Below are positions 41,238 through 46,624 of a DNA stretch of 64,000 nt, in pieces. This DNA is from Acidobacteriota bacterium. GTDB lineage: Bacteria > Acidobacteriota > UBA6911. The translations under genes were made by a program, and so were the position numbers. The stretch is taken from positions 1-64,000 of the forward strand of contig JAAYAJ010000098.1 in the NCBI GenBank assembly GCA_012719455.1, in the 5' to 3' direction. Below the pieces are notes generated by a model. The model was not told where the DNA came from. It made no database searches and saw only the letters and a program-made list of their open reading frames with translations. The first letter of the stretch is position 1, and every line of letters begins with the position of its first letter.

Positions 41238-41251
41238 TTCAAAATATTGAA
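41238..41251. promoter_or_regulatory. Enhancer half 1: TTCAA-N4-TTGAA inverted repeat
   Basis: TTCAA AATA TTGAA is a perfect inverted repeat. A second copy with the same arms is centred 22 bp (two helical turns) downstream. It lies about 130 bp upstream of the sigma-54 -24 element, the usual place for an NtrC-type activator site. Confidence 0.7.
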
Positions 41252-41259
41252 CAGCTGCA

Positions 41260-41273
41260 TTCAAGTTGTTGAA
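41260..41273. promoter_or_regulatory. Enhancer half 2: TTCAA-N4-TTGAA inverted repeat
   Basis: TTCAA GTTG TTGAA has arms identical to the first site and a different spacer, so the arms look selected. It is centred about 107 bp upstream of the sigma-54 -24 element. Confidence 0.7.
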
Positions 41274-41298
41274 GTATTGGCGCTACGCGTGCGCGACC

Positions 41299-41319
41299 GG
41301 GATAGACAAAACCTATCCC
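41299..41319. repeat. Inverted repeat GGGATAG-N7-CTATCCC
   Basis: Perfect 7-bp arms separated by 7 bp, between the enhancer pair and the sigma-54 promoter. It could be a binding site for a second regulator or a bending protein, or a weak hairpin. Confidence 0.45.
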
Positions 41320-41372
41320 CTTAATATTCCAGCAGTTAACAGCACCCATGATTCAGACACTCCCCCTCACCG

Positions 41373-41388
41373 TGGCATGTAAATTGCA
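41373..41388 (+). promoter_or_regulatory. Sigma-54 (RpoN) promoter of the sensor kinase/NtrC operon
   Basis: TGGCATGTAAATTGCA matches the -24/-12 consensus (TGGCAYR-N4-TTGCW), with GG at 41374-41375 and GC at 41386-41387 separated by exactly 10 bp. The start of transcription would fall near 41399, 30 nt before the kinase start codon. This rules out the longer in-frame start at 41348. Confidence 0.85.
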
Positions 41389-41414
41389 TCTTTCCTCCTT
41401 GCAGGGAACCCGAT

Positions 41415-41432
41415 ATGAAAGTGCGGCTATGA
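41415..41432 (+). CDS. Five-codon upstream reading frame (MKVRL)
   Basis: AGGGAA lies five nt before an ATG that opens the frame MKVRL. Its TGA overlaps the kinase ATG at 41429 (CTATGA). The kinase ATG has no good ribosome site of its own, so it may depend on terminating ribosomes from this mini-frame. Confidence 0.4.
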   Translation: MKVRL

Positions 41433-45655: not shown

Positions 45656-46624
45656 ATGAAGATCACTCCATTGCTCCGTTCGCTGGTGCTGGCCTGCCTG
45701 CTGGCGGCGGTCCCGGCCGCCCGGGCCGACTACAAGCAGGCGGTCGCCTATTACAACCAGGAGCAGTTCGCCAAGGCCATCCAGGAACTGAAGCCCGACC
45801 TGGACAAATCACCCGACTGGGAATTCGGCCAACGGCTGCTGGGACTCTGCTACCTCGGCCTCGGCAACAACGCCCTGGCGGTCTCCTCCTTCACGCGCGC
45901 GGCGGAGCTGCAATCAACGGCGTTTTCAACCTACTACGGGCTGGGGCAGGCCTACTTCAACATGCAGAAATACGCCGACAGCGTCACCGCTCTCGGACGG
46001 GCGGAAACCCTGGCGGCGCGGGAAAAGAACCCGGAGGCCGAAAAGACCAGGGTCTACAGGCTCCGGGGGGCCGCCCACTACCGCCTGCAGCGGTTCGACG
46101 CCGCCGCCGCAGACCTCGCTCGTGCGCTCCGGAACGGGAACGGGGACTGGACGGGGCATTCCATGCTCGGCGTGTCCTACCTCAACACCAACCGGACCGG
46201 CGAGGCGATCACGGAACTCGAGCGGGCACTGGCAATGAAACCGGGGGATCCGTCCGTCCGCGAGGCCCTGGGGAAAGCCTACTTCAAAAAGGGGATCACG
46301 GCGCTCTCGGGAAAAGATTACGCCGCCGCGATCCAGGCGCTCGGCAAGGCCCGGGAGTACGATGCGCGCAACGGCTACCTGCACTACAACCTGGCCGAGG
46401 CCTACCTCTTCCAGAAACGGTATCCCGACGCGGAAAAATCCCTCGGGCAGGCCGTCGCCCTCCTTCCCAACCACGCGGGGGTTCACGCCCGGCTGGGCTT
46501 GGTTTACGAAAAGCAGAAGAAGTGGGACCAGGCCCTGAAAGCCTACCGGAAGGCGGACGCGCTCGCCCCCTCCAAGGAAATCAAGGAAGCGATCCAGCGG
46601 ATCACCGAAAACAGGAAACAATAG
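45656..46624 (+). CDS. Exported TPR protein
   Basis: A 322-residue protein with a signal peptide (LRSLVLACLLAAVPAARA) and TPR repeats throughout (for example AVAYYNQEQFAKAIQELKPD, STYYGLGQAYFNMQKYADSV, HYNLAEAYLFQKRYPDAEKS). Periplasmic scaffold or chaperone roles are typical. It begins 52 nt after the response-regulator gene with a GGGGGA ribosome site, so it is probably in the sigma-54 operon. Its 3' end faces the minus-strand metalloprotease-like gene. Confidence 0.8.
   Translation: MKITPLLRSLVLACLLAAVPAARADYKQAVAYYNQEQFAKAIQELKPDLDKSPDWEFGQRLLGLCYLGLGNNALAVSSFTRAAELQSTAFSTYYGLGQAYFNMQKYADSVTALGRAETLAAREKNPEAEKTRVYRLRGAAHYRLQRFDAAAADLARALRNGNGDWTGHSMLGVSYLNTNRTGEAITELERALAMKPGDPSVREALGKAYFKKGITALSGKDYAAAIQALGKAREYDARNGYLHYNLAEAYLFQKRYPDAEKSLGQAVALLPNHAGVHARLGLVYEKQKKWDQALKAYRKADALAPSKEIKEAIQRITENRKQ

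Follow-up and report, generated by a model that had tools for sequence, protein, structure and literature searches.

A predicted sigma-54 enhancer-promoter unit of a two-component system in Acidobacteriota and its putative regulon of outer-membrane receptor genes

The locus and its genes

The region at positions 41238–41388 of the window (the whole stretch of 64,000 nucleotides of acidobacterial DNA that was analysed) contains two palindromes and a sigma-54 type promoter, followed on the same strand by the genes for a histidine kinase and an NtrC-type response regulator, which overlap by 4 bp (Table 1). The start of the kinase was taken as 41429, because the reading frame is open from 41348 and thus begins upstream of the promoter. 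A five-codon ORF (MKVRL, 41415–41431) that is preceded by AGGGA ends in a TGA which overlaps the start codon of the kinase (ATGA), and translational coupling of the two is possible. The regulator has the GAFTGA motif, as a first sequence-only reading of this DNA had reported for an NtrC-type activator in the same operon, and its helix-turn-helix (HTH) is conserved in orthologues. The gene for a TPR-repeat protein located downstream may be co-transcribed with these two genes, its membership of the operon being uncertain. The CarboxypepD_reg gene located upstream of the unit also directly precedes the kinase gene in most loci of orthologues; this retention suggests a third member of the system, and the protein is possibly part of the sensing apparatus.

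Table 1. Location and characteristics of the features described in this work (positions refer to the window, except for the RNA).
Feature	Location	Strand	Characteristics
Enhancer palindrome 1, TTCAAAATATTGAA	41238–41251	.	Putative target of a regulator dimer (NtrC type, encoded by the operon); from sequence and conserved arms in ten relatives
Enhancer palindrome 2, TTCAAGTTGTTGAA	41260–41273	.	From sequence and conserved arms in ten relatives
Sigma-54 promoter, TGGCATGTAAATTGCA	41373–41388	+	GG at 41374–41375, GC at 41386–41387; from sequence and conservation in relatives
Histidine kinase, 929 aa	41429–44218	+	TM helix, PDZ, multi-helix membrane region, GAF, PAS, HisKA, HATPase_c; from domain matches and structure model
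NtrC-type response regulator, 462 aa	44215–45603	+	Receiver, AAA+ (Sigma54_activat) with GAFTGA, Fis-type HTH
CarboxypepD_reg outer-membrane-type protein, 587 aa	39418–41181	+	Upstream of the unit; not driven by TGGCATGTAAATTGCA
TPR-repeat secreted protein	45656–46624	+	Downstream, same strand
Rod-shaped candidate non-coding RNA	L051 1360–1482 (contig C25 of the same genome)	minus	Also at L377, L378 and L380–L385

The enhancer sites and the sigma-54 promoter

Both palindromes consist of the arms TTCAA and TTGAA separated by an N4 spacer, and their centres are spaced exactly 22 bp from each other, at 128.5 and 106.5 bp before the first base of TGGCATGTAAATTGCA. The sequence-only reading had described this geometry correctly (two inverted repeats with identical arms and centres 22 bp apart, about 107–130 bp upstream of the promoter), as it had the GG-N10-GC spacing of TGGCATGTAAATTGCA, which is a perfect match to TGGCAYR-N4-TTGCW. 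The start of transcription would be expected near 41399. The window contains only these two copies of TTCAA-N4-TTGAA, vs. 0.03 expected from shuffled sequences, and the 2.79-Mb genome holds three exact copies, the third of which is located inside the coding sequence of a peroxiredoxin. The sequence TGGCATGTAAATTGCA is the sole match to the promoter pattern in the window, even when one mismatch is allowed; however, 0.92 such one-mismatch matches are expected per window, and the match, which is not significant by itself, counts as significant because of its position and conservation. RpoN is also encoded in the genome (PF04552 match, E 1.1e-56). The locus hence displays the elements that characterise NtrC-type units, viz. 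a -24/-12 promoter with GG-N10-GC, at least two dyad sites about 80–200 bp upstream of it, an activator with AAA+ Sigma54_activat, GAFTGA and HTH, and RpoN in the genome. A seven-bp terminator-like stem is present at 41299–41319, between the enhancers and the promoter, but it is absent in relatives and was left out of the unit for this lack of conservation.

Loss of the repeats in close relatives, which the sequence-only reading had named as evidence that would count against it, was not seen in an alignment of ten members of the genus and family. In all ten, two palindromes with a spacing of 19–22 bp are retained upstream of the promoter, and neither departs from TYCAA-N4-TTGRA at more than one position. 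Mean pairwise identity in this alignment is 0.89 for the arms, 0.57 for the N4 spacers and 0.80 for the -24/-12 element, compared with 0.34–0.36 for the flanks, the linker and the rest of the intergenic region, so that the arms and the promoter stand out as a clear conservation footprint in the aligned sequences. Position 2 of the site varies only between T and C and position 13 only between A and G, the core being fixed. The exact TTCAA arm, which holds for the locus itself, gives way in relatives to TYCAA...TTGRA, and judged from these sequences the working consensus is TYCAA-N4-TTGRA, with TTCAA as its local version.

Orthologues of the kinase occur throughout the phylum and the palindromes recur upstream of them; most of the named sequences closest to the regulator carry the label Acidobacteria. 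A strict palindrome is missing before some kinase orthologues that do have a sigma-54 promoter, which we count against the reading of the locus as an autoregulated unit. Among named public relatives (L064–L071), most of the kinase orthologues have a sigma-54-type promoter and they are mostly without the strict palindrome. One member of the genus (G006) carries the palindrome pair and the kinase promoter on two separate contig ends (L006 1–239 and the end of L203). Both ends share the same sequence in inverted orientation, an end of the ACTACTGTCCCAACGTTA type, and the enhancers and promoter of this genome have apparently been split by an insertion, as by a mobile element.

The sensor region of the kinase

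In a model of the kinase N-terminus (residues 1–400) made with 26 relatives (pLDDT 84), a TM helix is followed by a PDZ-like fold at about 35–120 and then by a multi-helix membrane region. Profile searches matched the region to PDZ domains from DegP and from a homologue of a site-2 protease (best E 5e-8), and Foldseek ranked AlgW and DegS first, among them DegS in complex with peptides of outer-membrane proteins. Because one TM helix precedes it, the PDZ domain is probably located in the periplasm. In view of what is established for DegS and AlgW, it is a reasonable hypothesis that the PDZ of the kinase senses C-termini of outer-membrane proteins or peptides in the periplasm, and its likeness to DegS and DegP together with its probable location makes sensing of the outer-membrane state plausible.

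Occurrence of the site across the phylum

We have searched 38 relatives for pairs of sites and for a site followed by a promoter, and 396 genomes of the phylum for the latter combination. Further pairs found in the 38 relatives precede CarboxypepD_reg outer-membrane genes. The site-plus-promoter pattern was matched in 27 of the 38 relatives and in 97 of the 396 phylum genomes; the reversed pattern gave only 2 matches, and a composition-matched control with swapped arms (TYGAA-N4-TTCRA) was matched in 11 of 396 genomes, three of these matches preceding Oar-like genes. The genes downstream of 143 distinct promoters were read, and they comprise 93 Oar-like genes, 29 orthologues of the operon's kinase and 21 others. 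The last group includes four promoters with no readable gene before the contig end, one that precedes the truncated start of a receptor gene (L310) and one at a kinase locus whose leader is longer (L167). By these counts, two gene classes, the Oar-like receptors and the kinase, account for about 124 of the 139 promoters that could be read (89%). The distance from the site to the -24/-12 element is 92–122 bp before more than 120 receptor or kinase genes, and paired sites are 18–23 bp apart. Among the sampled Oar-like targets, the sequences of which were truncated, CarboxypepD_reg was detected in 27/27, OMP_b-brl_4 in 23/27 and Plug in 13/27; they thus show the build of an Oar-like TonB-dependent receptor, in which plug and barrel come after an N-terminal CarboxypepD_reg.

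Kinase promoters with the site were found in about 18 families, including f12, f30, f32, f37, f40, f61 and f80, in which the site is directly before the kinase. In families that lack the kinase (f31, f13 and f38) none of the 52 sampled genomes, counted by hand from the tables, was matched vs. 97 of 344 in the rest, a difference for which the Fisher value of 1.7e-7 is indicative only, since the genomes are related and their match counts are not independent. A few genomes (G016, G073) have the site with no clear kinase match, which also counts against autoregulation. An Oar-like gene at L357 (genome G179) has a sigma-54-type promoter and a different upstream palindrome, TCGAA-N4-TTCGA; judging by this sequence, other activators may serve the receptor genes of other families.

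The wider regulon predicted from these site-bearing promoters is a phylum-wide set of Oar-like outer-membrane receptors, and the same repeats before receptor genes across the phylum look like an undescribed regulon for control of the cell surface. Our search of the literature on Acidobacteria, sigma-54, TonB and enhancer-binding proteins, whose coverage excluded most subscription papers so that absence is not proof, found no earlier description of the site or regulon, and two surveys of sigma-54 regulons do not mention Acidobacteria.

The expectation of the sequence-only reading that more sites would lie near other sigma-54 promoters is borne out across the phylum and mostly fails in the genome itself, where the regulon rests on pattern searches. 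The sole full palindrome pair of this genome is that at the kinase operon, and its other CarboxypepD_reg genes have neither a full pair nor a good -24/-12 element in the 900 bp upstream that were scanned. Defining the regulon by exact palindromes was likewise unproductive, the single further copy being the one in the peroxiredoxin gene. The other perfect TYCAA-N4-TTGRA sites of the genome include one at C25:7751–7764; TGGCATGGAATATGCT lies on the minus strand at a distance of 96 bp from it. The absence of a pair from its own CarboxypepD_reg genes, and the presence of only one further likely target, were counted against the reading as an autoregulated unit.

A structured RNA downstream of a second promoter

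No gene follows TGGCATGGAATATGCT on contig C25 until the 3' end of a SurA-like gene, and the RNA target has as its neighbour a gene for an activator with GAF and AAA+ domains. DNA searches identified downstream of the promoter a short block with 80–93% identity in the genus. The same promoter is present in eight further genomes with the site 99–110 bp upstream (two of them with one mismatch), the RNA locus thus being conserved in nine members of the genus. An invariant apical hairpin (TCGCGG-UCCCUUC-CCGCGA) is located 86–88 nt downstream of the promoter in the eight further genomes and 81 nt downstream in this genome. The predicted fold is a long rod with z-scores of -4.8 to -6.2; in its stems 93.5% of cells are paired and 19 carry changes on both sides, and none of the 500 shuffles or of the slid versions reaches its covariation score. 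Many G-U pairs agree with the strand of the sigma-54 promoter. No Rfam match was found in the RNA region at E values up to 1 (L051) or 0.5 (the eight relatives). A weak, below-threshold match to Acido-Lenti-1 is present at a contig end of one relative (L380 1–30, genome G008), outside the rod-shaped RNA.

We read this element, from its conservation and promoter, as a putative sigma-54-dependent small RNA of the same regulon. A pseudoknot between the loop and the 3' part is possible and shows only one compensatory change; pairing of the C/U-rich loop with ribosome-binding sites is a guess.

Interpretation and alternative explanations

The evidence summarised above makes us confident in predicting that positions 41238–41388 serve an autoregulated two-component system as its enhancer-promoter unit. 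Autoregulation, which the sequence-only reading had proposed, gains strong support from the presence of the site before orthologues of this operon in about 18 families. Phosphorylated dimers of the regulator would bind the two palindromes and oligomerise, their AAA+/GAFTGA module would through DNA looping open the sigma-54 RNA polymerase at 41373–41388, and the opened promoter would yield more kinase and regulator. Throughout the phylum a regulator of the same type would act through the same sites on genes for Oar-like (TonB-dependent-type) outer-membrane receptors, and in this genus also on the structured RNA. The sites, promoter, gene order, conservation and identity of the site-bearing genes are directly observed; we infer that the operon's own regulator is the protein that physically binds these sites and that it activates transcription. 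The signal would probably be the state of the outer membrane or periplasm, read by the PDZ of the kinase.

The co-occurrence of sites and promoter could also arise in other ways. The most serious of these, which we nevertheless consider unlikely, is that the palindromes are enhancers for a different NtrC-family activator, so that the operon is one target among many and its own regulator acts elsewhere. The phylum has several other activators of this family, any one of which could share the site (a point against autoregulation), and at least one other GAF and AAA+ activator is encoded in this genome, beside the RNA target. However, the operon's own promoter is the most recurrent non-receptor target, the only full pair of the genome is located before the kinase, and the site is absent from the sampled genomes of families without the kinase. 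Palindromes whose arms measure 5 bp are a typical feature of repressor operators as well, and those of the locus might bind a repressor or other dimeric regulator unrelated to sigma-54, the nearby -24/-12 match being a separate matter. This is very improbable, as the sites are paired with a spacing of 18–23 bp, do not overlap the promoter but are situated far upstream, and recur 92–122 bp from a -24/-12 element before more than 120 receptor or kinase genes. That the palindromes and promoter match are due to chance is scarcely credible: a one-mismatch -24/-12 match by itself is expected about once per window, but the rarity of the palindromes in shuffled sequence, their conservation at the genus, family and phylum levels and the swapped-arm control all contradict it.

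The autoregulated unit is, in its enhancer-promoter arrangement, of textbook form. The greater interest, judged from the sequence comparisons, lies beyond it, in the predicted phylum-wide receptor regulon and the structured RNA. What is new with respect to the literature searched is the combination, within one phylum, of a regulator, a predicted site and a coherent target class of outer-membrane receptors; this phylum is a major and poorly cultured one, whose surface regulation is almost unknown. To these is added what may be a new RNA family, predicted to share this control. This target class, the degenerate Y/R arm, the conserved upstream gene and the small RNA had all been missed by the sequence-only reading. 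With the consensus TYCAA-N4-TTGRA, the regulon can be tested directly in those members of the phylum that are culturable. As a tentative wider model, somewhat short of an even chance in our judgement, the unit may form the self-amplifying core of an old regulon that spans the phylum. A kinase whose periplasmic PDZ resembles that of DegS would here monitor the state of outer-membrane proteins and, via sigma-54, determine the levels of Oar-type receptors; in this genus it would also determine those of a new family of rod-shaped small RNAs.

Comparison with known systems

The unit resembles those of NtrC at glnA and PspF at psp in having two dyad sites about 100–130 bp upstream of a -24/-12 promoter, a GAFTGA activator and, as predicted here, autoregulation; it differs from them in its site, TYCAA-N4-TTGRA, and in its predicted targets, which are outer-membrane receptors and not nitrogen genes. 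The regulator is not assignable to named families by the NCBIfam cut-offs, scoring 448.7 bits vs. 558.6 for NtrC, 501.1 vs. 714 for AtoC and 379 vs. 763 for GlrR (QseEF/GlrKR). Identity with the PEP-CTERM system PrsK/PrsR was likewise rejected (PrsK 99.7 vs. 300; PrsR 408.2 vs. 502.6), though that system also links a kinase and an NtrC-type regulator to envelope functions. The enterobacterial QseE/QseG/QseF (GlrK/GlrR) system, with its targets glmY and rpoE, is an NtrC-type two-component system with periplasmic sensing and upstream activating sequences at sigma-54 promoters, and it controls a small RNA and cell-envelope functions (PMC6075780). The system described here shares with it the NtrC-type pair, the upstream sites at sigma-54 promoters, the probable periplasmic sensing and the theme of RNA and envelope, whereas its kinase has PDZ, a membrane region, GAF and PAS, its main predicted targets are Oar-like receptors, and its RNA is not GlmY-like by the Rfam search. 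The closest parallel to the sensor is outer-membrane stress sensing by DegS and AlgW, with which the kinase shares a probably periplasmic PDZ of the DegS/DegP kind; here, however, the PDZ is part of a histidine kinase that has no protease domain, and the output would be through sigma-54 rather than sigma-E.
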